DNA from: Deltaproteobacteria bacterium
Lineage (GTDB): Bacteria; Desulfobacterota; Dissulfuribacteria; Dissulfuribacterales; UBA3076
Assembly: GCA_011042225.1 (NCBI GenBank)
Contig: DQXT01000033.1
Span: 1 to 50,714, forward strand
Direction of reading: 5' to 3'
DNA: 50,714 nucleotides
In this document: one piece after another, positions 10,976 through 32,560 of the stretch
Numbering within the stretch: position 1 is the first letter of the stretch
How the letters are laid out: each line of letters starts with the position of its first letter
Notes under the pieces: model-generated
Databases searched by the model: none
What the model was told of the DNA's origin: nothing
The model's input: the letters and a program-made list of their open reading frames with translations, nothing else
Translations under genes and position numbers: made by a program

Positions 10976-12331
10976 ATGCGCAAGTTGTTTGGTACAGACG
11001 GCATTCGCGGAACAGCCAACATCCATCCTATTACTACTGATATTGCCATGAAAATCGGGCGTGCCGTGGCATATATGTTTAAAAATCGCCGCGGGAGTCA
11101 TCCCAGGATACTCATAGGAAAGGATACTCGATTGTCCTGCTATATGCTGGAAAATGCGCTTGCAGGCGGGATATGTTCAATGGGAGTGGACGTTTTACTG
11201 CTGGGCCCCATGCCTACCCCTGCCATTGCCTTTCTTACCACCAACATGAGAGCGGATGCCGGAGTAGTTATATCTGCATCCCACAATCTCTTTCAGGATA
11301 ATGGAATAAAACTCTTTTCAGGGGATGGATTTAAATTGCCCGACGAGTTGGAAAAACAAATAGAGGAATTGATGGATTCGCAAATATTAACAGAATCCCA
11401 ACCAACCGGGCAAGATGTAGGCAAGGCGGTCCGCATCGAGGATGCCCCCGGCAGGTACATAGTATTTGTAAAAAACACGTTTCCCAAGGATCTTGCGCTG
11501 GATGGCCTCAGGATTGTCCTGGACTGTGCGAATGGGGCTACCTATAAAGTGGCTCCGGCTGTTTTTGAAGAGCTCGGGGCAAAGGTAACCAAATTGGGAG
11601 TAAGTCCAAACGGTACCAATATCAACTACAGGTGCGGAGCGGTTTATCCCGAACTCATGCAGAAGGCTGTAGTCGAGCACAAGGCTGATATTGGAATCGC
11701 ATTTGATGGGGACGGCGACCGTTTAATAGTAGTTGATGAAAAGGGTTCAGTAGTTGATGGCGATCATATTATGACAATATGTGCCTATGATATGATTGAC
11801 AAGGGAAGGCTTAACTTTAATACCGTAGTAGCAACGGTTATGAGCAACATGGGGCTAGAGATTGCTCTGGAGAACAAGGGGGGGAAACTGGTCCGAACTC
11901 AGGTTGGTGACCGCTACGTAGTGGAGGCCATGAGGCAGGCAGGTTACAACTTCGGCGGAGAACAATCGGGGCACCTGGTGTTTCTGGATCATATAACTAC
12001 GGGTGATGGTATTTTGGCTTCTCTACAGCTTTTGGCTATCATGCAAAAAAAGGAAAGGGCCCTTTCAGAACTTGCCGGAACGATGGATTCCTTTCCTCAG
12101 GTACTTCATAATGTCCGCTTGCGGGAGAAAAAGGCTTTAGATGAAATTGCCGGCCTCAGGGAACTCCAAGACCAGTTAGAAAAAGATCTTAAGCACAGGG
12201 GCAGGATACTCGTCAGACCATCAGGTACTGAACCGGTTATACGCATAATGGTTGAAGGCGAAAACGAGGAACAGATACAGGCCATGGCTATGACAATGGG
12301 TAATCATGTTGAGTCGGTCTGTGGAATTTAG
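10976..12331 (+). CDS. glmM: Phosphoglucosamine mutase
   Basis: [18 protein letters not shown] phosphoserine loop, [26 protein letters not shown]. Confidence 0.97.
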
Positions 12332-13518
12332 TCCGCCTTTCTTCTCATAAAGGCGGGGATACTATCCAATTCATCGGTGTTTAGTTTATCAAGGCCGTCA
12401 AAGTCTAATACTGGTTTCTTCGAATTTTTTATGTGGTCGGTTATCCTAATAGGGTCCTTTTTGATACAGATTGACGGATCATGATCCGGTTTCATAGCCT
12501 TACTATTTTTCTTAATAGATTCTATTGGGGTAACAATATGCTTTCCAAAGGAAAGGGCGTCAGATCCTATACCGGTGGCTATTACCGTTACCCTTATCTC
12601 TTCATCTATATTGTCATCAAACACAGTTCCTAAAATTATATTAGCGTCTTCATGCGCCTCGTCGTAAATCAAAGAGGATGCCTGTTCTACCTCCTCCATG
12701 CTCAGAGTAGAACTGCTGGCAGTAATATTCAGCAGGATGCCCTTGGCACCGTTTATGGATATGTCTTCCAGCAAGGGATTGGATATGGCCATCTGTATTG
12801 CCTCCAAGGCCCTGCGTGATCCTTTGGCAACACCCGTACCCATAAGGGCCATCCCCATTTCAGCCGTGACTGTGCGAACATCGGCAAAATCCACATTTAT
12901 ATAACCCCTAAGGACTATGAGATCCGAAATGCCTCTTACTGCATAGTAAAGGACCTCATCTGCCTTTCGGAACATCTCTAGTATGGGAGTATTGGGTTGA
13001 GCCAGATTTCTGAGTCGGTCGTTTGGAATTGTTATTATGGTATCTACTACATCTTTCAATTCCTCTATCCCCTCTTCAGCCACACGCATTCTGCGTTTTC
13101 CTTCAAAGGAAAAAGGTTTTGTCACTACCGCCACTGTAAGGGCACCCAATTCTTTACTTATTTCAGCAATTACAGGGGCACCCCCGGTGCCGGTACCTCC
13201 ACCCATGCCGGCTGTGATAAAGACCATATCACTTCCTTCCAGCATAGTCCGGATATCATCTATGCTCTCTTCCGCGGATTCCCTGCCGATTTCAGGTTTT
13301 GCTCCTGCTCCGAGTCCCTTGGTAAGCCCTTTACCAAGCTGAATCTTTGCGCCGGCTTTGGATATTTCAAGGGCCTGAGAATCAGTGTTTGCAGCTATAA
13401 ACTCGACACCCTTGAGCTCAGAGGAAATCATGCTGTTAATAGCGTTTCCACCTCCGCCACCGACTCCTATTGCCTTTATCCTTGCAGTAAGTTTCGGTTC
13501 TATAAACTCAAAAGACAT
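12328..13518 (-). CDS. ftsZ: Cell division protein FtsZ
   Basis: [15 protein letters not shown], tubulin signature [24 protein letters not shown], and C-terminal peptide [13 protein letters not shown]. Confidence 0.98.
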
Positions 13519-13557: not shown

Positions 13558-14781
13558 CTAAATCTTAAACCATGACTTCATACGAAGGGTTACCTTGTTG
13601 AATATATTACCATCCCTTATTCGGAATTTTTTCTGGGAATGATGTTCCATGCCATAAAGCACAAGACCTACAGCAGTAGCAAACATGGGTCCGTTGACCA
13701 CATCCACCAAACCTGAAATCCTCTGTGGGAAGCCGATTCTTGTCGGCAACTGGAATACCTGATCCGCAATCTCAGCGGTTCCCGGCAGTAGGGCAGAGCC
13801 CCCGGTTATAACTATCCCCGAAGCCAATAGTTCCTTAAGTTCTGTCCGTTCTATTTCCTGGTCAATCAAGGTAAAAATCTCCTCTACCCTGGGCTCAAGT
13901 ATTTCAGACAGAATTTGCCTGGACAGAAGCCTGGGTTTACGTCCTCCCACACCGGGAACTTCTATCATCTGACCTCTGTCTGCCAGAGAATTGATACAGC
14001 TGCCGTCGCTTATCTTGATCTGTTCTGCCTCTTTACTGGGTGTCCTTAACCCGACTGCTATATCATTAGTGAGGTTGTTACCGCCAAGTCCCAGTACAGC
14101 TGTGTGTTTTATTGCACTTTCAGTAAATAGAGCAAGATCAGTGGTGCCACCACCAAAGTCCACAAGTGCAACACCCAGATCCTTTTCTTCCTGATTTAAG
14201 ACTGCTTCGGCCGAGGCAATGGGCTGAAAAACTATATCAACCACATCGAGCCCGGCCCTGTTTGCACACTTGATGAGGTTCTGGGCAGCCGTAACTGCTC
14301 CTGTCACGATATGTACCTTGGATTCCAGCCTTACACCGGTTATCCCTATAGGATCCAATATACCGCCCTGTTCATCTACGATATACTCCTGTGGCAGGAT
14401 ATGTATGACCTCTCTATCAAGGGGTATGGCTACCGCCCTTGCCGCATCTATAACTCTGTCAACGTCTTCCTGGGAGACCTCCTGGCCCTGTATGGCTATC
14501 ACCCCGTGACTGTTAAAACCCTTTATATGACTACCGGCGATGCCGATGAACACTGAGCTTATTTCACATCCGGCCATAAGTTCGGCCTCTTCAATAGCCC
14601 TTTTTATGGAATCGACCGTATTATCTATATTGACGACTACTCCCTTTCGCAGACCTACAGAAGGATAAGTCCCTACACCTATAATCTCGGCACTATTCTC
14701 ATTAAACTCGCCCACTACCGCACATATTTTAGTAGTGCCGATATCGAGCCCGACAATCATGTTACCGGGTTTTTCGACCAT
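13558..14781 (-). CDS. ftsA: Cell division protein FtsA
   Basis: Actin-like ATPase motifs IVGLDIGTTKICAVVGE, DFGGGTTDLALF, GIVITGGSALLPG; C-terminal amphipathic end. Confidence 0.97.
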   Translation of the reverse strand: MVEKPGNMIVGLDIGTTKICAVVGEFNENSAEIIGVGTYPSVGLRKGVVVNIDNTVDSIKRAIEEAELMAGCEISSVFIGIAGSHIKGFNSHGVIAIQGQEVSQEDVDRVIDAARAVAIPLDREVIHILPQEYIVDEQGGILDPIGITGVRLESKVHIVTGAVTAAQNLIKCANRAGLDVVDIVFQPIASAEAVLNQEEKDLGVALVDFGGGTTDLALFTESAIKHTAVLGLGGNNLTNDIAVGLRTPSKEAEQIKISDGSCINSLADRGQMIEVPGVGGRKPRLLSRQILSEILEPRVEEIFTLIDQEIERTELKELLASGIVITGGSALLPGTAEIADQVFQLPTRIGFPQRISGLVDVVNGPMFATAVGLVLYGMEHHSQKKFRIRDGNIFNKVTLRMKSWFKI

Positions 14782-14789
14782 TTCCTCTC

Positions 14790-15650
14790 CTAATGTTTCA
14801 AACTGACCAGGGCTTTGCCGGGACCATAATCGAGTTCCACCTTAACTGCTTTTTTATATGTCCCTGAGCGATAGAGTTGATAAAGGACTTTTTCCGCTCT
14901 ACTAAATTGGACGCCGAGATTTTCATAGTCAAAGTAAAAAGGAATACTGCCATAAGATGTAACCAGTATTAAGGTGTCTTTTTCAGCTATGTCTATTTGG
15001 CTGATATTGTTAACACCCAGAGTTCTTGTGCCCTTACTAGCCATGGATATCAACTCCAGGGCCTTTTGGATTCGGTTATTGTGCGATCTTGTTAAATTGT
15101 TATCTATAATGTTTTTAGGATCAATTCCTGTAATGATTGGAAGAGAGACGGATTCTTCTATTGAAAGTCTATCAATAATTTCGCCTTGTTCATCAATCAG
15201 GTACATTTTGTCGGAGTTCAAAATGGCTACCGGAGTGTGCTCTTTGAGCGTAATCATTAGGTGATCCGGCAATTTTTTTTTAACTTCAACACTATGGACC
15301 CAGGGATGCCCTTCTATGGACTTTGCAATCGATTCCAAGTCGAGAGACAGCAGATTGTCTTGGGCGGTCACATTACTCAATTGCAAAATCTCCTCTTCCG
15401 TGACACGGTCATTGCCTGTAATCAAAACCTGACAGACCCTAAAAAGCTCGGTTTGGTAAGCCCAATGTCGACACAAAAAAAAAGCGACAAAGCCAATGGA
15501 CATTACAGCTATAGCAACCAGTAATTTAGGATATATAGACCACAACACGGAAAACACCGGTTTTGTAGATTTGTCCCGCGAGATGAAGCTACATACTGAA
15601 GACCTGGATTCTAAAGACGGTCTTCTAATTTTCATGTTTCCATACCCCAA
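14790..15650 (-). CDS. ftsQ: Cell division protein FtsQ / DivIB
   Basis: Single TM followed by a POTRA domain (VCQVLITGNDRVTEEEILQLSNV...HPWVHSVEVKKKLPDHLMITLKEHTPVAI); dcw position. Confidence 0.9.
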   Translation of the reverse strand: MGYGNMKIRRPSLESRSSVCSFISRDKSTKPVFSVLWSIYPKLLVAIAVMSIGFVAFFLCRHWAYQTELFRVCQVLITGNDRVTEEEILQLSNVTAQDNLLSLDLESIAKSIEGHPWVHSVEVKKKLPDHLMITLKEHTPVAILNSDKMYLIDEQGEIIDRLSIEESVSLPIITGIDPKNIIDNNLTRSHNNRIQKALELISMASKGTRTLGVNNISQIDIAEKDTLILVTSYGSIPFYFDYENLGVQFSRAEKVLYQLYRSGTYKKAVKVELDYGPGKALVSLKH

Positions 15651-16609
15651 AAAGATACCTCCGGAACAAGTTCTACATCAGTCTCTTTTTTTACACGTTC
15701 TTTAATAATTTCCAATAAGTCCATTACCTCTACGGCGCTGGCTTTTCCACGGTTTATAATAAAATTTGCATGCCTTTTGGACACTTCAGCATCCCCAACT
15801 CTAAAACCTTTGAGTCCACATTGGTCTATGAGCTTTCCAGCTGAAACACCGGGGGGATTTTTGAAAATGCATCCCGCGCTTGGTTTTCCTAAAGGCTGGG
15901 TGGCTTTCCGCTGGCACATAGCGCTTCTCAAATGCTGCCTGATCTGATCGGCATTGCTTTTGCCGAATTTAATTCTTGCAGCCGAGATAATAGCATTGTC
16001 TTGCAGTCTGAAGGCCCTGTAATCAAAATACAATTGATCTCTATGAGACCAGCAACTACCATCAGGGCCTGTAAACTGAACAGCGTCTATCACTTCTGCC
16101 ATAAAGCACTTGTTAGTGCCGGCATTCATGAAGATGGCCCCGCCCACACTGGCCGGAATGCCGGAAAGATTTTCAAGACCGCCCAGGCTATTACGCACGG
16201 ACCAGGAAATAAGAGACCTCAGCCTGCAACCTGCCTCTACGTCTACCATTTTAAAGCGATGGCCATTAGCTGATCTCTCTTCCTGTAAAAAGGAACTAGA
16301 AGAAATTTGCCGGTGGTCCTCAGATTCAAATCTGCTTTCCACAGAGCATTGAATACGCTTCAGGGCCGCCAGAGACATAACCAGCTTCACGCCTTTGTCG
16401 CTGATCAAGAGATTGCTTCCTTGACCAATCACCTTATAAGATATGGAACGGTTACTGAGATAAAAAATGGTCTTTTCAAGGGCCTTCAATGTCTTCGGAG
16501 CCAGAAACAGATGTGCAGGCCCACCTATACGAAAACTCGTCAGCGGTAAAAGCGGTACACCTTCAAAGACTTGGAGATCTTCTATCTTTCTTAGATCCTT
16601 AGAGAGCAA
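15632..16609 (-). CDS. murB: UDP-N-acetylenolpyruvoylglucosamine reductase
   Basis: TSFRIGGPAHLF, GQGSNLLISDKG, GIPASVGGAIFMNAG, SAGCIFKNPPGVSAGKLIDQCGLKG. Confidence 0.95.
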   Translation of the reverse strand: MLSKDLRKIEDLQVFEGVPLLPLTSFRIGGPAHLFLAPKTLKALEKTIFYLSNRSISYKVIGQGSNLLISDKGVKLVMSLAALKRIQCSVESRFESEDHRQISSSSFLQEERSANGHRFKMVDVEAGCRLRSLISWSVRNSLGGLENLSGIPASVGGAIFMNAGTNKCFMAEVIDAVQFTGPDGSCWSHRDQLYFDYRAFRLQDNAIISAARIKFGKSNADQIRQHLRSAMCQRKATQPLGKPSAGCIFKNPPGVSAGKLIDQCGLKGFRVGDAEVSKRHANFIINRGKASAVEVMDLLEIIKERVKKETDVELVPEVSFWGMET

Positions 16610-17993
16610 TTGCTGACTCCTTTGTCTTAAGCATGCCCAAAATTCTCGGCCCCATATGCCCTATGGTACCAGCCCCAAGAGTCATGACCACGTCACCCTC
16701 CTGCAGGCTCGGCAAAATTGCCTGAGGAAGATCCCCGCATGACTCTATATAGTGTACTGTTCCACCACGTTGATTCATGATATTTCTTGCCAAACGTTTT
16801 CCGCTAACCCCTACTATGGGAGTCTCGCTCGCTGGATATATTTCCGTCAGCCACAGTTCATCAGCTTCTCCAAAGGCAGTGGTGAAATCGTCCATCAATG
16901 CCTGAGTTCTAGTATACCGATGGGGTTCGAAAAGAACCACGAGTCGGCGCTCAGGCCAACATGCCCTGGCGGCTTTGAGAGTGGCCACTATCTCAGTAGG
17001 GTGATGCGCATAGTCATCTACTACAATTATCCTTTCTGTTTCGCCCAATATCTCAAATCGCCTGCCTACACCTTCATATGACATAAGACCGGTCTGGATT
17101 TTGTGAAAGGGTATCTCAAGTTCAAGACCCAGGGCCATTGCGGCCAGAGAATTCCTTACATGGTGCAATCCAGGGACCTTGAGTTGTATCTCGCCAAGTT
17201 CGGAATTCTGCCACCAGGCATTGAAGGATACCCCCGGACCTTTGAAACTGATATCCCTGGCCTGTAGATCACATTCAGGTCCTGTACCATAAGTCATTGT
17301 TCGTTTTTTTACTACCGAGAGCATTTCTCTGAGGTGAGGGTTGTCTCCACAAAGTATGGCAAGACCATAGAAAGGTATTTTGTCTATGAAGTCCTGAAAA
17401 CAGCGTATTATTGCATCCAAATTGGAATAATAATCCAAGTGCTCCCTATCTATATTCGTTACCACGACTATGCTTGGTGTAAGGCGCAAAAAGCTGCCGT
17501 CACTTTCATCGGCTTCTGCTATAAGAAATTCGCCCTGTCCCCAATAGGCATTGCTCCCAATACCATTTACCTTCCCTCCTATGATAACCGTTGGATCAAG
17601 GCCACCGACACGAAGCACGGAAGAGATCATAGAGGTGGTGCTGGTCTTTCCATGTGCCCCGGCCACTGCTATGCCGAATTTTTTGAGCCGCATCAATTCT
17701 GCCACCATTTCAGCCCTTGGTATAACCGGAATTTGGGAAGAAAGTGCCCCCTGCACCTCAAGGTTATGTTCTCTGATGGCAGAGGAAATCACCACTACAT
17801 CGGCACCTTGAATATTTTCAGGGGCATGACCATTGTAAATTGTACCCCCCAATTTTCTTAGAGACCTGGTGATTTCAGTCTCACGCAAATCCGAACCCGT
17901 GACTTTATATCCCAGATTAAGAAGGATTTGTGCAAGGCCGCTCATGCCTATCCCGCCGATTCCTACAAAATGAATATGTTGTTTTTTATACAT
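16599..17993 (-). CDS. murC: UDP-N-acetylmuramate--L-alanine ligase
   Basis: HFVGIGGIGMSGLAQILLNLGYKVTGSD, AGAHGKTSTTSMI, DDYAHHPTEI. Confidence 0.96.
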   Translation of the reverse strand: MYKKQHIHFVGIGGIGMSGLAQILLNLGYKVTGSDLRETEITRSLRKLGGTIYNGHAPENIQGADVVVISSAIREHNLEVQGALSSQIPVIPRAEMVAELMRLKKFGIAVAGAHGKTSTTSMISSVLRVGGLDPTVIIGGKVNGIGSNAYWGQGEFLIAEADESDGSFLRLTPSIVVVTNIDREHLDYYSNLDAIIRCFQDFIDKIPFYGLAILCGDNPHLREMLSVVKKRTMTYGTGPECDLQARDISFKGPGVSFNAWWQNSELGEIQLKVPGLHHVRNSLAAMALGLELEIPFHKIQTGLMSYEGVGRRFEILGETERIIVVDDYAHHPTEIVATLKAARACWPERRLVVLFEPHRYTRTQALMDDFTTAFGEADELWLTEIYPASETPIVGVSGKRLARNIMNQRGGTVHYIESCGDLPQAILPSLQEGDVVMTLGAGTIGHMGPRILGMLKTKESAIAL

Positions 17994-19188
17994 GGCTGCG
18001 TACTTTAGAACATTTCAATGAATTGGTTTCTTTTTGAGAACATGAAAATGTATGCCCGGCCATCTTCATCAGTGTAGAGGCCATATCTGCAGCCGCCTTG
18101 GGCCTTCCGAGTTTGCGCGCATTTTCTCCCATATTGTTGAGTTTTTGAGGATCCTCCAGTAAAGACTGTATCTCTCCTGCCAGTTTTATAGCTCCGACTT
18201 CTCCTTCCAGGAAATATTTGGAAGCCCCGGCTTCAGCCAGTTTTCTGGCGTTTGCATCCTGATGGCCGTCTGTTGCCCAAGGATAGGGAATAAGTATCGA
18301 AGGCTTTCCCGTAATCGCGAGTTCAGCCAAAGTACCCGCTCCTGCCCGGCAAATAACCAGATCTGCCCAGGAATAGGACTCACCAATGTCGGAAATAAAT
18401 TGGACCACTTTGGCCGGAATATTTGCATCTGCATAAAATTTCTCAACATAAGACATATCCAGCCTTCCTGTCTGGTGAATAATTCCCAAATGAAAACCAG
18501 ATTGCCACAGAACCTCTATGGCTGAACTGGCAAGCCGGTTCATGCATGTGGCACCCTGACTACCACCCAGGACCAAAATATTGTGTGATTGTGCGATCTT
18601 ATGATTTTGTGATTGGAATATGTCTTTCCGCACTGGATTTCCCGTAAAAATTACTCTGTTTCTTGGAAAATATTTGGTAGTCTCCTTAAAGCTCACAAAA
18701 ACTGTCTTTACAAATTTAGAGGCCAAACGATTTGTGAGGCCGGGTATAAGGTTCTGCTCATGAAGTGCTGCAGGTATCCGCAGTATCCGCGCTGCAAGAA
18801 GTGTGGGACCCGAGACATATCCGCCGACACCGAGCACCACATGAGGCCTGAATGATTTGAGCCACGAACAAGCCCTGATAGTGGAGAAAGGAAGTCCAGC
18901 CAGAGAACGTACAGTCCCTGAAATGCCTGAGCCCCTCAAAGGCCCCGTATTAAGGATTTTATAATCCCATTTATGTTCTAAAAGCGCATTTTTTTCCACC
19001 GGGCGGCCTGTACCTATCCACATAACATCTATAGGGCCGTATGATTCCATGGCCTCAACCACTGCCATTCCGGGAAATACATGCCCTCCCGTGCCGCCAC
19101 CAGCCACCACTAATTTGATGATTTGCCGGTTTGATGATTCGGTATTTGTTTTGTGCTTATATATTTCTCGACTCTTAGCCAAATTCAT
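17986..19188 (-). CDS. murG: UDP-GlcNAc:undecaprenyl-PP-MurNAc-pentapeptide GlcNAc transferase
   Basis: LVVAGGGTGGHVFPGMAV, VLGVGGYVSGP, EQNLIPGLTNR, LGGSQGA, ICRAGAGTLAEL. Confidence 0.95.
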   Translation of the reverse strand: MNLAKSREIYKHKTNTESSNRQIIKLVVAGGGTGGHVFPGMAVVEAMESYGPIDVMWIGTGRPVEKNALLEHKWDYKILNTGPLRGSGISGTVRSLAGLPFSTIRACSWLKSFRPHVVLGVGGYVSGPTLLAARILRIPAALHEQNLIPGLTNRLASKFVKTVFVSFKETTKYFPRNRVIFTGNPVRKDIFQSQNHKIAQSHNILVLGGSQGATCMNRLASSAIEVLWQSGFHLGIIHQTGRLDMSYVEKFYADANIPAKVVQFISDIGESYSWADLVICRAGAGTLAELAITGKPSILIPYPWATDGHQDANARKLAEAGASKYFLEGEVGAIKLAGEIQSLLEDPQKLNNMGENARKLGRPKAAADMASTLMKMAGHTFSCSQKETNSLKCSKVRSHV

Positions 19189-19242
19189 GACCTGCTCGCA
19201 GCTTTATTTTTAAATTAAAGTTCCTTTCCTGAAATAACCAAA

Positions 19243-20664
19243 TCACTCAATCAATAAATCATTCAATTCCCTGGCTGCCTCCTGAAAGGCCATGCCACGT
19301 TCTTCATAATTTTCGAACATGTCAAAGCTGGAACAGGCCGGGGAAAGAATTATTGCATCGCCGGGCTCAGCCAGGGACCTAGCTTTCTCCACGGCTTTTT
19401 TCATAACCTTTTTGCCTTCTTTTGTCCCATGTACTTTAACAACCGGCATTACCTTACCCAGAATTTTTTCAAACGCCTTGGCCTCTTCACCTATAACGAT
19501 CGCACCACGAACAACTGTCTTTTTAGCGATATCGGCCAGGGAACCATAATTTTCACCTTTGCCACGGCCGCCCAAAATAATTACTATTGGCTGTTCTATG
19601 GACTCTAGTGCACAAAGTACGGATGCAACATTAGTGGCCTTAGAATCGTCATAATAGTCGATACCCCCGTTTTGGACCACCCACTGAATTCTATGATTCG
19701 CTGCTTTGAAAATTCGAATAACAGACTTTACTGCAACAGCACCTGCACCTGCCAGACGTGAAATAAGTATGGCACAAGCCAAATTTTCAACATTATGTCG
19801 ACCCTTTAGAGACCAGCTTTCCAAATCATATCTTTCCCACGTATTATCAGACCACATTATGTCGATCTTTTTCAAAGAGGTGTCCAGCCCGGCCCCTGGA
19901 ACTCCAGGGCTCAGCATCCCAAAGTAAAGCCTTCTGGCACGTCCCCGGTCATTCCAAGTTTCTAGTTCCTTGTCATTCATGTTGCGTATGGACCAGTCAC
20001 CAGGCCCTTGAAAATCATAGATTACTGCCTTGCTGTCTCCGTAGCTTTTAATGTTCTGATAACGATCAAGATGATCCGGGGCAAGATTGAGCCATGCGGT
20101 TATATTGAACCTTGGGGGATTAAAGTTGAAATATCTGGTCCTCGGGAAATAATCCAATTGAAAACTGCTAATCTCAAGGACAGCAATAGTTTGCTCAGTA
20201 TGTCCTTCAATAAATGCCGACAAGGGTGTTCCGATGTTCCCAGCCCTTACATGAGGCACACCGGCCTTATTCAGCATCTCATCTACAAGCATCGTGGTAG
20301 TAGTTTTTCCATTTGTGCCGGTGATAGCAATAAGCGGTCCTTTCCAGACAGATGCAGCAAGGGCCATTTCTCCCAACACAGGGATGTTGTGCTTGTGTGC
20401 CGCCTCAAGGGCAGAAATTTCAGGTGAGACACCAGGGCTGACCACTATCAGGTCAGAGGAGAGGCAAGTGTCTATCTTGTGCTTTTTTGTCTCTATGCCG
20501 ACACCATTTTGGTGACACCATCTTGTGAAATCATTAGGCCATTCCTTAAGGGCATTTAAGTCACTGCATATGACTTGTGCCCCTTGAGAGACGATCCATC
20601 TGGCGGCTGCCTGCCCGGATACTCCCATGCCCAGTATTGTTACTTTTTTGCCCTTAAGCTCCAC
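19243..20664 (-). CDS. murD: UDP-N-acetylmuramoylalanine--D-glutamate ligase
   Basis: VTILGMGVSGQAAARW, AITGTNGKTTTTMLVDEML, NLAPDHLDRY, DDSKATNVASVLCAL, ILGGRGKG. Confidence 0.96.
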   Translation of the reverse strand: MELKGKKVTILGMGVSGQAAARWIVSQGAQVICSDLNALKEWPNDFTRWCHQNGVGIETKKHKIDTCLSSDLIVVSPGVSPEISALEAAHKHNIPVLGEMALAASVWKGPLIAITGTNGKTTTTMLVDEMLNKAGVPHVRAGNIGTPLSAFIEGHTEQTIAVLEISSFQLDYFPRTRYFNFNPPRFNITAWLNLAPDHLDRYQNIKSYGDSKAVIYDFQGPGDWSIRNMNDKELETWNDRGRARRLYFGMLSPGVPGAGLDTSLKKIDIMWSDNTWERYDLESWSLKGRHNVENLACAILISRLAGAGAVAVKSVIRIFKAANHRIQWVVQNGGIDYYDDSKATNVASVLCALESIEQPIVIILGGRGKGENYGSLADIAKKTVVRGAIVIGEEAKAFEKILGKVMPVVKVHGTKEGKKVMKKAVEKARSLAEPGDAIILSPACSSFDMFENYEERGMAFQEAARELNDLLIE

Positions 20665-20760: not shown

Positions 20761-21840
20761 CTATCTCAATTTGAGCGTGCTGATTGCCAACAGCCCAAGC
20801 AATATGGAAATTATCCAAAACCTTACAATGACCTTTGGTTCTTTCCATCCTTTAAGCTCAAAATGATGATGGATAGGTGCCATACGGAAGATCCTCTTGC
20901 CTCCTGTTGTTTTGAAGTAAAGGACCTGAAGAATTACGGATAATGCCTCAATAACAAAAATCCCGCCTACAATTACAAGCAGCATTTCCTGCTTTGAAAG
21001 TACGGCCACCGTCCCAAGAGCCCCTCCCAAGGAAAGGGAGCCGACATCTCCCATGAAGATCTGGGCCGGATAGGTATTATACCAGAGGAAACCCAGACCG
21101 GCGCCTACCATGGCGCCACAAAACACTGCAAGCTCTCCTGCACCAGGAACCGAAGGAATCCGAAGGTATTGTGCAAGAGTCGAATGACCCGCCAGGTAGG
21201 TAAACAGGGTGTAAACCGCTGCAGCTATTATAAAAGGGCCTGCGGCAAGTCCGTCCAGACCATCGGTCAGGTTAACCGCATTAGAGGTCCCCACAACCAC
21301 AAGCAGAGCGAAAAGACCATACATAATTCCTAGATCAGGCTGAAAATTCTTAAAAAAAGGAATACTAAGATGGGTATCCCACTTACCATGTGCGGCAATT
21401 AACCCTGCGGCTAAAAATACAAAAACTATTTGCCCGACAAGCTTCAATCTGCCCGACAGACCTTTGGCATTCTTTTTCCAGATCTTTAACAGGTCGTCTA
21501 CGAGACCTATTATACCGTAACCGACAAGGATTAAAATGCTTATCCAAACATAAAGGTTTCTTAAGTCAGCCCAGAGAAGTGTAGCGATTAGAATGGACCC
21601 TATGATTAATATGCCCCCTATACTCGGTGTTCCGGCTTTTGTATGATGTATTGTCGGCCCATCGTCCCGGATGATCTGGCCCATCTGCATTTCACACATA
21701 ATTCTTATAAACCAAGGTCCAAAAATCAATATTATTGAAAGGGCAGTCACTGCAGCGTATATTGTTCTAAATGTAATATAGCGAAAAACGTTAAATACAG
21801 GCCACATATCGTTAAGGGGATATAGCAGATGAAAAAGCAT
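20761..21840 (-). CDS. mraY: Phospho-N-acetylmuramoyl-pentapeptide transferase
   Basis: [60 protein letters not shown]. Confidence 0.97.
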
Positions 21841-21843
21841 AGC

Positions 21844-24800
21844 CTATACTGTCAACCCCCCTCTTTTACCCTCTCCCAGTTGCCTGATAAGGGCATTTAC
21901 CGCTCTCTCGAGACCTATGGCCCTTGATCCCTTTACAAGTATAGTTGCCGGAAAGGGCATACAATCAAGAGCAGCTAATTCTATCCAGGAAAGCAGATCT
22001 TCAATGTCAGGGAAAACACGTATAGCCTTTTTTGAAATACCCGCCTTTCTGGCTGTTTCAGAAACAGCATCAGCAAATTCGCCTATTAAGACCAAGAGAT
22101 CAACCCCCGTATTGGCTGAAATTCTTCCGAGTTCCTGATGAAACTCGTAGGCAGCATCTCCAAGTTCCAGCATATCTCCCAGAATCGCTATCTTTTTCCC
22201 GCCTCCGCTCCAAAAATCCAGAGTCTCAAGAGCCGATCGCATAGAGCAGGGGTTTGCATTATAAGAATCATCGATCAGCATCCATTTAGGTCCAAGATTT
22301 CTCAAAAAAAGGCGCCCCGGGAGCGGCCTTGCTTCCTCCAGCCCCTGTTTGATCAAAGCCGGCGTCACCCCTACTGCATGACCTGCAGCTGCAGATGCAA
22401 CGGCATTTTGTACATTCGCCTTCCCTATAAGGTGAAGATCAACATAAAGTCTGTTTCCGGCAATATCCAGATCCAGCAAAGTGCCATGTTCGCTTAATGT
22501 CCATGACAGGCAGGTAATTTTATCATTTGAAGATTTTAAAATTTGGTGATCTGGAAACGAATCCGCCTTTTGTCCCATTGAATAGCCCACGACCTGACAT
22601 TTTAGGTCTTTGGCCCCCTCCATCACCATAGGATCATCAAGGTTAACCACTGCTACACCCGTCTGGGAAATGGCTCGCCACAGCTCCCACTTTTCTTGGG
22701 CTACTGCCTTTAAGTCCCCCAGACCGACAAGATGGGCAGGTTGAATTGTAGTAATAAGGGCTACTTGCGGCTGGGCAATTTCACAGAGTCGTGATATTTC
22801 TCCCGGTTGGTTGGTTCCCATTTCCAGCACTGCCCAAGAATCGTTGGATCCGGCGGAAAGCAGGCTAAGCGGCAGGCCGATAAGGTTATTAAAATTGCCA
22901 CTGGTTTTAGCGACTTTCCATTTTTTTTTCAGGATCGAGAAAATCAGTTCTTTTGTGGTTGTCTTGCCGCAACTACCCGTAATGCCGATTACTTTGATTC
23001 CAAGATGGTTTTTATACCATGCTGCGAAATCTCCTAAGGCCTTTAATACATCCTGGACTTGCAATAAAACGGGACGACAAGATCGAGGGTCTAAATTCAA
23101 GTTTCGGAAGTCAAAGCTAGAACTAATTACTGCACTAGTACATCCTTGTCCTACAGCATCAAGGATAAAATCGTGCCCATTGAAACGGTCCCCGGAAAGT
23201 GCCCAAAAAATATTTGCCTTTCTTACTGATCTGGAATCTGTCGATATGCCCTGGATTAATGTATTAGGGTCACCTGAAAGAACTCTGGCTCCAATAGCCG
23301 TTGCCACCTGAGAAGCCTTTAATCGAAATCCATAATCCTCAAAATTCTCAAGCGTTGACCTTCCAGCTTCTATCTTTGATTCAAAGGCCTTTGTCAATAT
23401 TTCTCTGTCGTCAAAGACAAGTCGTTCCCTGCCGATTATTTGGTAGGTTTCGTGGCCCTTCCCAGCCACGAGAAGACAAACACCGGGCTGCGCCCTTTCT
23501 ACTGCCCATGAAATAGCTGCTTCTCTATCTGGAATTATTTTCACTTCAGCTTTGGTTGCAGGGTGACAGGGAGGGAGATCTCGGAGACCGTTCAACATCT
23601 GATCGATTATTGCAAGGGGATCTTCAGTACGAGGATTATCCGAAGTCAACACAACAATATCTGCCAGTGAAGCAGCTGCCCGGGCCATTAGAGGACGCTT
23701 GCCTCTGTCTCTGTCTCCTCCGCAGCCGATAACACAGATCAGAAGCTTATTAGGCCCTAACCCGATAAGGCTGCTAAGAACACTTTCCAGAGCGTCAGGG
23801 GTGTGTGCGTAATCTACAAAAGCGGTGACTCCATTGTGAGAATATACAGGATCCAGTCTTCCCGGAATACGTATTATTGATTTTATGCCGGCCTGAATAT
23901 GGTCCGGCTCTATCCCGAGACTGATTGAAACCGCTACTGTTGCAAGGATATTGTATAGGTTGTGCAAACCCATAAGCTTGGATTTGATGGAAATAGGGCC
24001 TTTGGGCGTAGATATATCACATATTATTCCTTCACTATCAATAAATTGAAACTCCGGTTTTACCTCTGCTTCAGGGCTGAGGCCATAACTGATCTTTTTC
24101 TCTTTTACTATCTCCCACAGACGCCTTCCATATAAGTCATCAATGTTAATAATTGCCGCATCAGAGGGATATTTCAAAAATAATTTTACTTTCGCCTGAA
24201 AGTATTGTTCCATGTCTTGGTGATAATCCAGGTGATCGCGACCTAGGTTGGTAAAAATAGATGCTGCGAAACTACATCCTGAGATCCTCTGCTGGTCAAG
24301 GGCATGGGAAGACACCTCTAAGGCCACTGCCTTTGCGCCTCTTTTCAACATGTTGGCCAGGGTCTCCTGAAGTTTTACGGCATCAGGGGTAGTAAGTTCA
24401 GAAGGCACCTCTATGCCGCAATGTCTTTGGCTTATCGAGCCTATTACACCGGGATTCAGCCCGGCTTTGCTGAAAATGCCTTCCAGGAGGTATGAAATCG
24501 TAGTCTTACCATTAGTGCCTGTAATAGCTATAAGAGACATTTTTTCACTTGGATTTCCATAAAAAGCACTTGCCAAAAGACCTATGGAAAGCCTGGGATC
24601 GTCCACTCCTATAACAGGCAAGGCCATGGGAACGTTTTTGACGTAATGATGCAGATCTTGCCTAGACATCAACACGGCGGAGGCACCTTTCACCACGGCA
24701 TCATTGATAAATTGTCTTCCGTCAAATTCAGTGCCTGGAATTGCAACAAACATGTATTCCCGTTTTACCTGTCTGGAGTCTGCTGTTATACCCCTGATTT

Positions 24801-24897
24801 TTACGTCGTACTTCTCAAATGATATAAAAACAGCGGGCTTCAACACTTCCAACATATCCCGCAAGGTCCTTTCGTTTTGCGTATTACCAAACATCAC
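21844..24897 (-). CDS. murE/murF: Fused MurE-MurF: UDP-MurNAc-tripeptide synthetase (meso-DAP type) plus D-Ala-D-Ala-adding ligase, 1017 aa
   Basis: N-terminal half has ITGTNGKTTISYLLEG and the DNPRTEDP motif of DAP-adding MurE. C-terminal half has GITGSCGKTTTKELI, EMGTNQPGEISRL and DDSYNANPCSMRSAL of MurF. One uninterrupted frame; junction near 23350. Confidence 0.94.
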   Translation of the reverse strand: MMFGNTQNERTLRDMLEVLKPAVFISFEKYDVKIRGITADSRQVKREYMFVAIPGTEFDGRQFINDAVVKGASAVLMSRQDLHHYVKNVPMALPVIGVDDPRLSIGLLASAFYGNPSEKMSLIAITGTNGKTTISYLLEGIFSKAGLNPGVIGSISQRHCGIEVPSELTTPDAVKLQETLANMLKRGAKAVALEVSSHALDQQRISGCSFAASIFTNLGRDHLDYHQDMEQYFQAKVKLFLKYPSDAAIINIDDLYGRRLWEIVKEKKISYGLSPEAEVKPEFQFIDSEGIICDISTPKGPISIKSKLMGLHNLYNILATVAVSISLGIEPDHIQAGIKSIIRIPGRLDPVYSHNGVTAFVDYAHTPDALESVLSSLIGLGPNKLLICVIGCGGDRDRGKRPLMARAAASLADIVVLTSDNPRTEDPLAIIDQMLNGLRDLPPCHPATKAEVKIIPDREAAISWAVERAQPGVCLLVAGKGHETYQIIGRERLVFDDREILTKAFESKIEAGRSTLENFEDYGFRLKASQVATAIGARVLSGDPNTLIQGISTDSRSVRKANIFWALSGDRFNGHDFILDAVGQGCTSAVISSSFDFRNLNLDPRSCRPVLLQVQDVLKALGDFAAWYKNHLGIKVIGITGSCGKTTTKELIFSILKKKWKVAKTSGNFNNLIGLPLSLLSAGSNDSWAVLEMGTNQPGEISRLCEIAQPQVALITTIQPAHLVGLGDLKAVAQEKWELWRAISQTGVAVVNLDDPMVMEGAKDLKCQVVGYSMGQKADSFPDHQILKSSNDKITCLSWTLSEHGTLLDLDIAGNRLYVDLHLIGKANVQNAVASAAAGHAVGVTPALIKQGLEEARPLPGRLFLRNLGPKWMLIDDSYNANPCSMRSALETLDFWSGGGKKIAILGDMLELGDAAYEFHQELGRISANTGVDLLVLIGEFADAVSETARKAGISKKAIRVFPDIEDLLSWIELAALDCMPFPATILVKGSRAIGLERAVNALIRQLGEGKRGGLTV

Positions 24898-26651
24898 TCG
24901 CAGGTTATACTGCAGGTCTTCACACCATTAAGAGGTATTCCTGATTCTGGTTTCTGCGCGATCACGGTCCCTACACCTTTGAGCTCTGTATAAATGCCCA
25001 TGGATTGCAAAATGTCCAGGGCCTGTCTTACGGATTTTCCCTTAAGATTCGGCATAGTGGAAAACTGTCTTTCTGCCTCTTCGGTTTTCACCGTTCGCCA
25101 TTCGTCTTTCAAGGGTATCTGCACCGCCTGTTTTGCTACTACCAGTGAACGCCCTAAAGTGCCCCGACGCTCACGAGGGTCGATTTTTACGCCGTCGAGC
25201 AAAACAATATAACTTACTTTGGGTGATCTTTCGGGCCAGAATCCTAGGGCAGTAACCTGTGCTGGAAATTGATTAGAAATTTGGTCAGACTGTTCATTCC
25301 ACCTGATACTCGCAAGAGACGGCCCTCCTCTGACCGCGAGCTTTCTCAGCGATTTGTGTATCAGTTCTTCTGTCAACCAGGAAATTGGGGCATGCTTTTG
25401 GTCATTCGCGGAAGAGCCCGGTATCAAAAATTCATCAGTGCTTTGTAGGGCCACGTGCGGTGTAACTAATATATTTTTATTTATCAGGGCAGAGAAGGCC
25501 CTGAGAATCTGGATAGGACTGGCGGTAACGGCCTGCCGCAAGAGGCTATTACGTAACCCTGCCGGGGCTGATGGGAGGCTGCCCCGGCCTTCACCCGGAA
25601 GGTCGATACCTGTAAATTGACCAAATCCCAGACCCCAGAGATCTCTTGAAATGTCATTATAAGGGACAATATCCTTTAACTCCTTTTCAGTCCAGGGACT
25701 CCATAATACCATACCCTTATCCAAAACCTCCCATTGGCACTGGTGGGCGGTTTTCCCCAAAGGCAAAATCTCTGACTTTTGAAGTTCACTTTGTTCAAAC
25801 ATCCAGTTTAAAAGGGGCACAAGTATCATCAGGTCAACATTATCTTGGAGAGAATAGTTTATGATATTCCTCTCAGATATTTCCCAAAAACGTTCAGGAT
25901 CCCAGGAAGGCTTGCTGGCAAGGGCAAGAATCTCACCATTTTCAACACCCATTATAACAAAACAGCCTTTCTCTGCCTTAAGTCTTTTGATCTGCCTGTC
26001 AAGCTCTTTTTCTGCTGATGACTGAATATCTTTACTAAGTGCAAGCGTAAGATCCTGTCTACCTGGGTAAATTTGTGACCCTTTAGTTTGCCTTAAAAGG
26101 CTATCATATGTGTATTCAATTCCCTCAAGACCTCTGCCGCCTTGGTCGACAAATCCCAAAACCGGAGAAGCCAGTGAATTACAAGGATATACCCTTTTAT
26201 ATTGTTCCAGTATTTCTAAGCCTCTAACCTGCATGTCTTTGAGCTTCCGGCCTTGTTCTTCGGAAATACAGTCTTTTAGACATATAAGGTCCTGCTCATC
26301 TGCAAGCATATCTTTCAAAGTTGGCAAATCAAGGTCAAGAATTTCTGACACCTCTGCCAGCCAATCATCAACTTGCCGCAAACGGGAAGGCCGCGCCAAG
26401 ATAGAGATTTTTTTTTGGTTTGCAACAAATATTGCTCCTGTCCTGTCAAGGATCATGCCTCTATCTAAGGGACTTTGCTGGGAATAGTAGCCGGTGTTTT
26501 GTTGTTGACAAAGCATGGACGAATCAATGTCATCTTCGCTATTGACAGCGTTGCCTTGCCAAAGACAACCAACAAACGCTGCGGCAATAACAGCAAGACT
26601 CAATAAGCTGAAAAGAAAAGAAATTTTCTTTTTTTTATAAGGAAAAATCAT
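24894..26651 (-). CDS. FtsI/PBP-like protein with PBP dimerization domain, degenerate transpeptidase domain and C-terminal PASTA domain
   Basis: RGMILDRTGAIFVANQKKISILARPS and GRGLEGIEYTYDSLLR (PBP dimerization domain), GVENGEILALASKPSWDP, WGLGFGQFTGIDLPGEGRG, C-terminal PASTA (MPNLKGKSVRQALDILQSMGI). No SxxK, SxN or KTG at the expected places. Confidence 0.85.
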   Translation of the reverse strand: MIFPYKKKKISFLFSLLSLAVIAAAFVGCLWQGNAVNSEDDIDSSMLCQQQNTGYYSQQSPLDRGMILDRTGAIFVANQKKISILARPSRLRQVDDWLAEVSEILDLDLPTLKDMLADEQDLICLKDCISEEQGRKLKDMQVRGLEILEQYKRVYPCNSLASPVLGFVDQGGRGLEGIEYTYDSLLRQTKGSQIYPGRQDLTLALSKDIQSSAEKELDRQIKRLKAEKGCFVIMGVENGEILALASKPSWDPERFWEISERNIINYSLQDNVDLMILVPLLNWMFEQSELQKSEILPLGKTAHQCQWEVLDKGMVLWSPWTEKELKDIVPYNDISRDLWGLGFGQFTGIDLPGEGRGSLPSAPAGLRNSLLRQAVTASPIQILRAFSALINKNILVTPHVALQSTDEFLIPGSSANDQKHAPISWLTEELIHKSLRKLAVRGGPSLASIRWNEQSDQISNQFPAQVTALGFWPERSPKVSYIVLLDGVKIDPRERRGTLGRSLVVAKQAVQIPLKDEWRTVKTEEAERQFSTMPNLKGKSVRQALDILQSMGIYTELKGVGTVIAQKPESGIPLNGVKTCSITCE

Positions 26652-26662
26652 TCTGATCTCGA

Positions 26663-27025
26663 TCAGTTGAGATATATTATTTGCCGTTTAGTAGGTGGAT
26701 GAAGTCCCATTTCACCCCCCAATTTTTCCATATGGCTGCGTGCCTTGATCCGATCCAGCCGAGTGGTGAAATCCTTATATCGATTACTGAGTCGGCCTTG
26801 TTCCCTTTGAAGCAACTCTAAGTCCTTTGCTGTTTCTCTGACTTCGTGAGTAATCAAAATTCCTAGAATTAATAAAGCGCCTAAAACAATCAGCGCAATG
26901 GCCTTATTAAGGCTCATTTTGAGTATTTTTGATAACAAAAGGTGGTCACAGGCCCTGTTTTTCTGTGCCGTCGAAACATATGAGCGTCTCTGGGGTGTTC
27001 TAATTGTTGCTGATCGGAGACTCAT
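26663..27025 (-). CDS. ftsL: FtsL-like septum protein (ORF extends to 27040; ATG at 27025 preferred)
   Basis: Small protein with one TM (AIALIVLGALLILGILITHEV) followed by a coiled-coil-like segment, between rsmH and ftsI. Confidence 0.75.
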   Translation of the reverse strand: MSLRSATIRTPQRRSYVSTAQKNRACDHLLLSKILKMSLNKAIALIVLGALLILGILITHEVRETAKDLELLQREQGRLSNRYKDFTTRLDRIKARSHMEKLGGEMGLHPPTKRQIIYLN

Positions 27026-27204
27026 TTTCTCCCCTCCCAAAACAGGTTTTTGTCAAAAGGCTCAAGGGCACTTTTATGTTTCTGTCGGGAAAATAGCAAT
27101 CTGAGGTATTGCTTCAGATTTTCACCTGCTGCAAGACAAGCCGAACATTTCTTATTTCCGAGAAATTTTGAGACTTGTATCTTAGACTTTTTGAGTGAAG
27201 TCAT
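27022..27204 (-). CDS. Small 60-aa ORF of unknown function between rsmH and ftsL
   Basis: MTSLKKSKIQVSKFLGNKKCSACLAAGENLKQYLRLLFSRQKHKSALEPFDKNLFWEGRK. Its TGA overlaps the proposed ftsL ATG (ATGA), and the GGGAGGGGAG SD for ftsL lies inside its 3' end. Confidence 0.45.
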   Translation of the reverse strand: MTSLKKSKIQVSKFLGNKKCSACLAAGENLKQYLRLLFSRQKHKSALEPFDKNLFWEGRK

Positions 27205-27230: not shown

Positions 27231-28133
27231 TTATAGTAATTGGGTCAGAGCAGTATTCTGCCCTCTATATTGAGCAACTCTTAGCTTGGCACTTCTAGCC
27301 CGGGGATTACTATTTATTTCTTCAAGGCTTGGCACCAAAGGTTTTTTAGTTAAGGGCTTCAATCTCTTGTCTTCTCTGAAAGCGATTTTGACCAGACGGT
27401 CCTCCATAGAATGAAAGGAGATAACACACATTCGTCCTCCGGGTCTCAGACAAGATGGGAATGAGTCAAGGGCCTCTTTAAGATTGTCCAGTTCTCGGTT
27501 CAATGCGATTCGAAGTGCCTGGAAGGTGCGTGTAGCGGGATGAATTCGGCGTGGATGATATTTTCTCGGAATGGAATCGGCAATCACTTCCGCCAGGTCT
27601 CTCGAACTCAGAATAACTTCTGCCTTGCGCCTTTCATATATGCGTTTGGCGATCCTTTTTGCCCATCTTTCTTCCCCATATGTATGGATAAGCTCGGTCA
27701 ATCTTTCAACCGAAAGCTTATTGACTATGTCGGCAGCAGTCACTGCACCAGATTGATCCATGCGCATGTCAAGAGGTTCGTCCCTGGAAAAGCTGAAGCC
27801 TCTCCCGCTGTTTTCCAAATGGAAGCTGGAAATGCCGAGATCCATAAGTATGCCATCAACTTGCTCTATTCTGTTGGATAAAAGAACATCACGAAGATGA
27901 ATGAAGTTGCTGTAAACTAATCGAACCCTGCTGCCAAATGCGGCCAATCTGGATCCGGCCTTTTTCATGGCTTCTGTATCATAATCAAGGGCCAGCACCA
28001 TTTTGACTTCGGGGCACCTTGACAGTATGGCCTCTGTATGGCCTCCCAGACCAAGTGTTGCATCCACATAGATACCCCCTGACCTCAATGACAGGCCATC
28101 CAGAACTTCGGAGAGCATTACAGGGACATGCAT
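27231..28133 (-). CDS. rsmH: 16S rRNA (cytosine(1402)-N(4))-methyltransferase (start MHVPVMLSEV; ORF track extends to 28193)
   Basis: MHVPVMLSEVLDGL, DATLGLGGHTEAIL, ILMDLGISSFHLE, HPATRTFQALRIALNREL, VISFHSMEDRLVK. Confidence 0.96.
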   Translation of the reverse strand: MHVPVMLSEVLDGLSLRSGGIYVDATLGLGGHTEAILSRCPEVKMVLALDYDTEAMKKAGSRLAAFGSRVRLVYSNFIHLRDVLLSNRIEQVDGILMDLGISSFHLENSGRGFSFSRDEPLDMRMDQSGAVTAADIVNKLSVERLTELIHTYGEERWAKRIAKRIYERRKAEVILSSRDLAEVIADSIPRKYHPRRIHPATRTFQALRIALNRELDNLKEALDSFPSCLRPGGRMCVISFHSMEDRLVKIAFREDKRLKPLTKKPLVPSLEEINSNPRARSAKLRVAQYRGQNTALTQLL

Positions 28134-28143
28134 GGCCTCTTTT

Positions 28144-28593
28144 CTAACCGCTAATTCCGAATTTGGCGGTGATATCGCTGCTGTACTGATCAAAGTTACT
28201 CCTAGTCTTCTGCAATTCTTTGTTCAAGCTGTCCCGGTTTGATATTTCAAAATAGGTAAGCATACCCGAAAGAACCACATCCCTGGTCAATACCGCCTCT
28301 TCACGAAGCCTCTGGGGTATCAATATTCTCCCCTGAGCATCCAGTGAACATTCCGCTGCAGCTCCCAACAGGTATCTTTTAAAGGCTATGACTTCAGGAG
28401 GCCCGAATTGAAACCGGCTGAAATGTTCTTCTATTTTTCTCCATTCCTCAAAAGGATAAGCTGCAAGGCAAGAGGGCAAGTTGGTAACTACCAGCCGGTC
28501 ATCATATTTTGCCTGCAAGAACTCTCTAAAACGCGCCGGAATGCTAAGACGGCCCTTGGCATCCAAAACATGGGCTGACCGTCCTCTAAACAT
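28144..28593 (-). CDS. mraZ: Transcriptional regulator MraZ
   Basis: MFRGRSAHVLDAKGRLSIPARFRE and SLDAQGRILIPQRLREEA: duplicated SpoVT/AbrB-like halves. Confidence 0.95.
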   Translation of the reverse strand: MFRGRSAHVLDAKGRLSIPARFREFLQAKYDDRLVVTNLPSCLAAYPFEEWRKIEEHFSRFQFGPPEVIAFKRYLLGAAAECSLDAQGRILIPQRLREEAVLTRDVVLSGMLTYFEISNRDSLNKELQKTRSNFDQYSSDITAKFGISG

Positions 28594-30633: not shown

Positions 30634-32442
30634 TTAAATTTCAGGTTGCATCTCTTCTATCTTTCTTGCCTGAGTCTCTCTATATTCCTTTAGCCTCTTT
30701 GCAATATCCCGATCTTCCAATGCCAAAATCTGAAGTGCCAACAAAGCGGCGTTCTTTGCCCCGGCCTCTCCTATCGCCATAGTCGCAACAGGAACCCCGG
30801 GAGGCATCTGGACAGTGGATAGTAAAGCATCAAGTCCACTCAACGATGAACTGTCTACCGGCACGCCTATAACAGGAAGTATGGTGTTGGCTGCCAAACT
30901 GCCGGCCAAGTGTGCGGCCATTCCGGCGCCAGCTATTAATACCTTTATTCCTCTGTTTTCCGCCTCTTTTGCATATATTGAAGTAAGTTCCGGAGAGCGA
31001 TGAGCTGAAGCAACCTTTAACTCACATAAGATACCAAACTCATTCAAAACATCCCTGGCTGCTTTCATAACCTCTTGGTCACTGAGGCTTCCCATTATAA
31101 TACCTACCTTGGCAGGGCTGCCAAAATGCGAGGGAACCGACTTGCCGGCCTTATCTGATATGTATCTGAGGGCCTTTTGACCAATATCCCTTCTGTAATG
31201 CATACCTTCCCAGGAAATTTGACCAACTGCTTTATACGCAAGGTCTATTGCCTCTGGAATCGTATCCCCGAGCGCCGTAACACCTAAAACTCTTCCACCG
31301 GATGTGACGAGTCGACCCCTTTCCTTGGCAGTCCCTGCGTGAAAGACCATTACGTCTTGCATCTCAGTCACTTTATCTAGACCGTGGATAACCTGGCCTG
31401 TCTCATAGCTTCCAGGATAGCCTCCGGAGGCGAGGACAACGCAGACAGCAGCCCTGGGATCCCACTCAAGCTCGACTTCATTTAACCTGCCTTCAAGTGC
31501 TGCCTCAATTACCTCCATCAGGTCAGTGCGAAGTCTCATCAGGATCGGTTGAGCCTCGGGATCACCGAACCGGCAGTTAAATTCCAAGACACTGGATATA
31601 CCATCTTTGATTATAATGCCACCATAAAGTACTCCCTGATAAGGCCTTTTTATCTTTGCCATGGCTTCTACTGTGGGCCTCATAACCGTATCCATTATAT
31701 CATCAAACAGGTTACCGCTTACCACAGGTGCTGGAGAATAAGCCCCCATACCACCGGTATTAGGCCCCTTATCATCATCAAATACAGGCTTATGGTCCTG
31801 AGAAGTAGCAAGGGGAAGGACTGTTCTTCCGTCTGTTATAGCCATGAAGGATGCCTCTTCTCCGGTGAGAAATTCCTCTACTATCAGACAATTACCTGCT
31901 TTACCAAAGGCATTTTTGCGAAGGATAAGGTCTATTGCCTCTTCCGCATCCGCGAGGGAGCGGGCCAGCAGCACCCCCTTGCCGGCTGCCAGCCCGTCTG
32001 CCTTTATTACAATTGGTACTCCAGTTATGTTCTTGATATAATCAAAAGCGGCATTCGGCTCGGCAAAGACCCTGTAGGCCCCTGTTCGTATACCGGCTTC
32101 AGTGAGCAGATCTTTTGAAAACACCTTACTTGCTTCAATCTGGGCAGCCGCTTTAGTAGGTCCGAACACCGCAAGTCCATGTTCGTTGAATCTGTCTACC
32201 AGACCTTCAGCCAGAGGAACCTCCGGACCCACCAATGTTATATCGATATCCTCCTTTTTGACAAACGATACAAGGCCATTAATGTCACAGACTTTTATAG
32301 GTACACAGACGGCATGTTGACTTATACCGGCATTGCCGGGCGCGCAGAATACTCTTGACACCTTTGGGCTGGACGCCAGCTTCCAGCAAAGGGCGTGTTC
32401 GCGGCCTCCTGAACCTATGACTAAAATTTTCTTCTTGTGCAT
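30634..32442 (-). CDS. purD/purE: Fused PurD-PurE: phosphoribosylamine--glycine ligase plus N5-CAIR mutase/AIR carboxylase domain
   Basis: PurD: ILVIGSGGREHALCWKL, DGLAAGKGVLLA, NTGGMGAYSPAPV, EFNCRFGDPEAQPI. PurE: VGIIMGSLSDQEVM, VASAHRSPELT, IAGAGMAAHLAG, PVIGVPVDSSSLSGLDALLSTVQMPPGVPVATMAIG. Single frame; junction about 31108. ATG at 32442 preferred over 32502. Confidence 0.93.
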   Translation of the reverse strand: MHKKKILVIGSGGREHALCWKLASSPKVSRVFCAPGNAGISQHAVCVPIKVCDINGLVSFVKKEDIDITLVGPEVPLAEGLVDRFNEHGLAVFGPTKAAAQIEASKVFSKDLLTEAGIRTGAYRVFAEPNAAFDYIKNITGVPIVIKADGLAAGKGVLLARSLADAEEAIDLILRKNAFGKAGNCLIVEEFLTGEEASFMAITDGRTVLPLATSQDHKPVFDDDKGPNTGGMGAYSPAPVVSGNLFDDIMDTVMRPTVEAMAKIKRPYQGVLYGGIIIKDGISSVLEFNCRFGDPEAQPILMRLRTDLMEVIEAALEGRLNEVELEWDPRAAVCVVLASGGYPGSYETGQVIHGLDKVTEMQDVMVFHAGTAKERGRLVTSGGRVLGVTALGDTIPEAIDLAYKAVGQISWEGMHYRRDIGQKALRYISDKAGKSVPSHFGSPAKVGIIMGSLSDQEVMKAARDVLNEFGILCELKVASAHRSPELTSIYAKEAENRGIKVLIAGAGMAAHLAGSLAANTILPVIGVPVDSSSLSGLDALLSTVQMPPGVPVATMAIGEAGAKNAALLALQILALEDRDIAKRLKEYRETQARKIEEMQPEI

Positions 32443-32560
32443 GATCTTCTTCTCCCTGTATTTGTTCTCTAAACAAGGCAAGCTCACCCTACCATCGGGC
32501 ATGAAGGTGTCAACGCCTGTTCTGATAATTTTATGCCTTGAGTGCCCGAATTCTTAGTTA

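Follow-up and report, generated by a model that had tools for sequence, protein, structure and literature searches.

The FtsI of the bacterial class Dissulfuribacteria has probably been reduced to a non-catalytic component of the divisome, in a lineage that has lost the septal synthase pair FtsW-FtsI. This pair is regarded as the near-universal synthase of the septal wall, and FtsI is a prime target of beta-lactams. The gene at issue, here called ftsI*, lies in a window of 50,714 nucleotides (the whole stretch of DNA that was analysed), which belongs to the draft genome (2.05 Mb, 153 contigs, 96% complete) of a hot-vent bacterium of the order Dissulfuribacterales, class Dissulfuribacteria. The gene and its parts are the following:

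24894..26651, minus strand: ftsI*, FtsI/PBP3-position protein of 585 aa with the transpeptidase motifs absent (translation, Pfam, profile alignment)
26565..26630, minus strand: N-terminal membrane anchor helix, residues 8-29, its last residues the lipobox-like FVGC (Cys29) (AF2 helix)
26067..26465, minus strand: PBP_dimer (pedestal) domain, residues 63-195 (Pfam PF03717, E 6e-13)
25107..26051, minus strand: transpeptidase-domain remnant, residues 201-515 (partial PF00905; hhalign; Foldseek)
25815..25835, minus strand: site of EPGSTFK (SxxK), reading DLMILVP, residues 273-279, with Ser replaced by Ile276 and Lys by Pro279 (profile alignment)
25695..25703, minus strand: site of SxN, reading W317-S318-P319 (profile alignment)
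25290..25298, minus strand: site of KTG, reading N452-E453-Q454, C-terminal of a GPSLAS segment (profile alignment)
24939..25058, minus strand: PASTA domain, residues 532-571 (Pfam PF03793, E 1e-7)

Translation of this reading frame reproduced exactly the 585-aa protein of the initial annotation, which had also reported that all three transpeptidase motifs are missing; on this point Pfam agrees, and so does a profile alignment against intact FtsI from elsewhere in the phylum. The best stretch of the match to PF00905 (Transpeptidase) covers the middle of the profile only (residues 339-442, corresponding to profile positions 124-222 of 299), and the profile-profile alignment obtained with hhalign runs over 527 columns, near full length (E 6e-76). 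In that alignment, D273 to P279 stand in the columns of EPGSTFK, W317 to P319 in those of SSN, and N452 to Q454 near KTG. The strings SAEK at 212, SLRK at 434 and SAN at 414 fall off the motif positions and are chance occurrences. An AlphaFold2 model built on an alignment of 30 relatives (pLDDT 78, pTM 0.72) found its best Foldseek matches in the PDB among structures of P. aeruginosa PBP3 (E about 1e-28), with a TM of about 0.55-0.65 across a multidomain protein. Comparison with FtsI by profile and by model, as had been suggested, showed the fold to be kept and SxxK, SxN and KTG to be absent from their positions. Overall, ftsI* resembles FtsI/PBP3 in its site in the dcw cluster between ftsL and murE, and in its anchor, pedestal, transpeptidase fold and PASTA domain; it differs in having lost all three motifs and in belonging to a genome without FtsW, the cognate SEDS partner. 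Its position, pedestal domain and fold, together with PASTA, identify it as a true FtsI ortholog, and with the catalytic residues lost across the orthologs and the enzyme fold retained, it is a probable pseudoenzyme. When ftsI* was searched against a plasmid collection, distant class B PBPs were the only matches.

An ortholog of ftsI* was detected in 47 of the 49 genomes of the class, and the two genomes without a match have a completeness of 83% and 66%. Among the orthologs found, that of G011 has two in-frame stops at the far end of the match. SxxK, SxN and KTG are gone from their positions in all class members that cover those columns (44/44), including one (L118) that retains Ser in the Ser column and has Val where Lys stood. 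The same loss is observed in the complete isolate genome of Dissulfurimicrobium hydrothermale (G016), a relative within the order; strain Sh68 of this species is placed in Desulfobacterota, class Dissulfuribacteria, order Dissulfuribacterales, and has a genome of 2,025,450 bp (PMC8780430). Intact FtsIs from other families of Desulfobacterota carry EPGSxxK (as STFK, STIK, SMFK, SLLK or STLK), SSN and KTG, one of the outgroup sequences compared ending before KTG.

We then focused our attention on the SEDS partner. The remaining genes of the dcw cluster in the window, together with the junction at which ftsW is found in FtsW-containing relatives, are as follows:

28144..28593, minus strand: mraZ (sequence, position)
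27231..28193, minus strand: rsmH (mraW) (Pfam PF01795, E 4e-107)
26663..27040, minus strand: ftsL (position; weak match to Pfam FtsL_2, just under the cut-off)
21844..24897, minus strand: murE-murF fusion, 1017 aa (two Mur ligase modules)
20761..21840, minus strand: mraY (sequence, synteny)
19243..20664, minus strand: murD (sequence, synteny)
19189..19242, no strand: murD-murG junction of 54 bp, the ftsW site in FtsW-containing relatives (synteny, SEDS search)
17986..19188, minus strand: murG (sequence, synteny)
16599..17993, minus strand: murC (sequence, synteny)
15632..16609, minus strand: murB (sequence, synteny)
14790..15650, minus strand: ftsQ (POTRA_1, FtsQ_DivIB_C)
13558..14781, minus strand: ftsA (Pfam FtsA, E 2e-48)
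12328..13518, minus strand: ftsZ (Tubulin, E 9e-52; FtsZ_C, E 3e-31)

Open reading frames of similar length, 982 aa in D. hydrothermale and 1041 aa in another genome (G099), occupy the murE-murF position. No SEDS gene was found anywhere in the window, nor in six frames with stops read through in the dcw loci examined from the class and from other FtsW-less genomes. Each of the 49 class genomes has one SEDS gene, the copy in G047 consisting of two fragments at contig ends. In the window genome this gene lies directly behind mrdA in a cluster mreB-mreC-mreD-mrdA-rodA, and the three class SEDS proteins that were placed in a SEDS tree all fall in the RodA clade, opposite all FtsWs encoded in dcw clusters. 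Relocation of FtsW to a site outside dcw was thus ruled out for the window genome, whose single SEDS belongs to the RodA clade. As read from these loci, ftsW is lost from the class together with the FtsI active site. In one genome (G017), the single SEDS gene (C8:125121) is not located beside the PBP2 gene (C8:354126).

The combination extends beyond the class. Across 296 genomes of the phylum, most have two SEDS genes and several families have one. All of the 20 dcw clusters read from nine families outside the class (f25, f28, f35, f39, f63, f71, f72, f81 and f95) lack ftsW and encode a dead protein at the FtsI position, which rules out a trait unique to the order Dissulfuribacterales; families that retain FtsW have an intact FtsI. 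The initial annotation had described a pseudo-PBP of a single genome; the trait is in fact class-wide, accompanied by deletion of ftsW, and paralleled in other families. Among these cases is Desulfurivibrio alkaliphilus AHT2 (G214; genome of 3,097,763 bp, PMC5016858), with a dead FtsI and no ftsW in dcw. Three genomes (G063, G220 and G328) have a dead FtsI and a second SEDS outside dcw, not assigned to the FtsW or RodA type. The f35 and f63 proteins have shrunk to about 250-350 aa. What is left is an anchor, a transpeptidase remnant with a sequence like EPSFFMS at the EPGSTFK site, and PASTA; the pedestal is gone, and so is a large part of the transpeptidase domain. Homology of this short form to FtsI was detected by hhalign (E 2e-9), and a low-confidence model gave Foldseek matches to PBP2x, OXA beta-lactamases and the PBP3 transpeptidase domain. 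In a tree of concatenated dcw genes, which are linked, and which was midpoint-rooted with FastTree supports and is not a species tree, the class groups with f39, f72, f95, f81, f71, f25 and f28 (support 0.97), and f35 and f63 fall outside this main clade, in a region of low internal supports (0.2-0.35). Because these two families branch apart, FtsI activity was likely lost at least twice, and a single loss behind all cases is unsupported. A further genome (G240), in which an intact FtsI and one SEDS were found, looked like an exception but was set aside: inside murD the sequence of its dcw cluster gives way to N, and ftsW therefore cannot be assessed there. In G067, G071 and G255 (L143, L144, L153, L217-L219), the single SEDS is the FtsW of the dcw cluster and FtsI scores as intact; no rodA was found in these three genomes.

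FtsZ, FtsA, FtsQ, FtsL and FtsB are retained, FtsB having been found in 19 of the 19 genomes searched (in the window genome it is encoded outside the window), as are an intact MreBCD-PBP2-RodA set and a class A PBP. A class A PBP-like match was obtained in all but two of the 49 class genomes (47), and these two are 55% and 66% complete. The gene content agrees with FtsW/FtsI-independent septation of the C. difficile type: a catalytic FtsW/FtsI pair is missing, whereas RodA-PBP2 is present along with one or more class A PBPs. On this basis, a class A PBP and/or RodA-PBP2 probably builds the septal wall: septal peptidoglycan would be polymerised and crosslinked by the class A PBP, by RodA-PBP2 recruited to mid-cell, or by both, in some families perhaps with the help of a further, monofunctional transpeptidase. 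PF00905 detected nothing but MrdA and the class A PBP in family f4, and one of these two must therefore be able to build the septum in that family, unless crosslinking is done by a protein of another kind. The dead FtsI, for its part, would keep the structural half of its role, namely the membrane anchor, pedestal contacts with FtsQLB, and wall binding through PASTA. The evidence is compatible with a scaffold role, and we infer that it still acts as an adaptor. A more far-reaching version of this proposal is that a whole deep clade, consisting of Dissulfuribacteria and relatives (among them thermophilic families and families like that of Desulfurivibrio), and independently of it a second clade, swapped FtsW-FtsI for another peptidoglycan synthase with FtsZ-FtsA-FtsQLB kept, the dead FtsI being an adaptor from FtsQLB to the new synthase; we advance it tentatively, giving it somewhat less than an even chance.

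Precedents exist for both halves of the proposal. In C. difficile, which has no canonical FtsW/FtsI pair for it, vegetative division is carried out by a class A PBP (Shrestha et al. 2023, PMC10693644). The class shares with it the lack of a working FtsW/FtsI pair for division, the retention of RodA-PBP2 and the presence of a class A PBP. However, the dcw-encoded SpoVE/SpoVD of C. difficile are active and used in sporulation, whereas the class has lost ftsW by deletion and carries a dead FtsI; moreover, FtsA is kept in the class and missing in C. difficile. In B. subtilis, a catalytically inactive PBP2B (S309A) still supports division, with PBP3 supplying the activity (PMC5656894), and the structural role is therefore separable from catalysis. 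Here, too, cells divide with a catalytically dead class B PBP in the divisome, but in that laboratory mutant FtsW is present and PBP3 acts as a substitute, while the situation in the class is natural and ancient, and FtsW is gone. For cable bacteria and Desulfobulbus, the parts of the published account available to us state that ftsW, ftsN and zipA are absent, that FtsI is present and that the septal wall is made by FtsI activity; those parts make no mention of a dead FtsI active site (PMC7873302). The dead FtsI found here is that of Desulfurivibrio alkaliphilus and not of a cable bacterium; if the cable-bacterium FtsI is also dead, septal synthesis by FtsI activity as published would be challenged. 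The absence of FtsW in Desulfobulbaceae is thus already known, and the dead FtsI is apparently unreported: a search made mostly without subscription papers gave no published report of dead FtsI active sites, and nothing on naturally inactive PBPs. A class with FtsZ and FtsQLB and without FtsW or FtsI activity offers a natural experiment in which the structural and the enzymatic roles of FtsI are separated, and raises the question of what FtsQLB regulates once its usual target is gone; its cultured members and relatives (Dissulfurimicrobium, Desulfurivibrio) allow testing.

A different explanation is that FtsI, left without a partner after the loss of FtsW, is a slowly decaying relic with little or no function, its gene being kept by the dcw operon through translational coupling. 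We consider this unlikely, although several observations point in its direction. The retained parts of FtsI vary by family, as the pedestal is lost in f9 and PASTA in f5 and f6, and some proteins are cut down to the short form described above; with different domains lost and no single preserved binding surface obvious, slow decay would also fit. In addition, the median dN/dS of ftsI* among eight genomes of the window genus was 0.30, above that of murE-murF (0.18), with 0.26 for rsmH and 0.41 for ftsL (Nei-Gojobori, 28 non-independent pairs). Nevertheless, this value is far below 1 and resembles those of ftsL and rsmH, the ortholog is present in nearly the whole class, and blocks outside the old active site (LGFGQxTGIDLPGE, SPIQ, RRGTLG and PASTA) are conserved. 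ftsI* is under purifying selection and less constrained than an enzyme such as MurE. Examination of orthologs in related genomes, proposed together with the claim of a dead but maintained protein, therefore bore out both halves of that claim, which is strongly supported by the class-wide motif loss, the kept fold and the dN/dS.

It is also conceivable, but rather improbable, that the septal crosslinker is a new one acting alongside the dead FtsI, in the manner of B. subtilis PBP3 with inactive PBP2B. The search for a second, catalytic FtsI in the window genome, which had likewise been advised, covered the transpeptidase family and ruled such a gene out. It returned three other transpeptidase genes: MrdA/PBP2 beside RodA, a single class A PBP of the bifunctional type, and a monofunctional transpeptidase of 470 aa (L003:1399-2811, minus strand) with intact motifs (SIFK, SIN, KSG). 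This last protein is the candidate, and judged by length, similar matches occur in families f1 and f9 and are missing from some other families of the class. However, the PF00905 genes of f3, f4, f6 and f10 number no more than two or three (mrdA, the class A PBP and the dead FtsI), and the 470-aa transpeptidase is therefore not a general answer.

There is little to recommend the idea that the ftsI* domain has acquired another activity, with a new nucleophile or a ligand site around [WFY][SG]PW and GPS[LI]AS. W317-S318-P319 of ftsI* does belong to the former motif, and much of the class has new conserved motifs in the regions where SxN and KTG once stood, but they are not universal (f9 has WTR), no candidate Ser/Lys dyad is present, and some families have lost parts of the pocket by deletion. 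Lastly, an assembly or frameshift artefact, for which only the draft state of the window assembly could speak and which the initial annotation had named as a possible source of error in the active-site region, has a negligible probability and was ruled out, as dozens of assemblies made independently of one another show the identical loss, and so does the closed genome of an isolate sequenced with long and short reads.

The N-terminus of ftsI*, described earlier as weakly lipobox-like, proved to be a real feature, as FVGC is found in nine of ten members of the genus and SVGC in the tenth. In family f9, the FtsI anchor also ends in a lipobox-like sequence, [LIVFM][ST]GC followed by FGE (L025, L026, L028, L029, L032, L034, L118-L121, L125 and L126), which suggests that the dead FtsI of this family may be a lipoprotein; the Cys of the f9-type lipobox is absent from the intact outgroup FtsIs. 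Elsewhere in the window, a 622-aa open reading frame (30634-32502, minus strand) appears to be a purD-purE fusion, and two neighbouring frames (32753-33807, minus strand) are candidate remnants of a frame-broken transposase of an insertion sequence.
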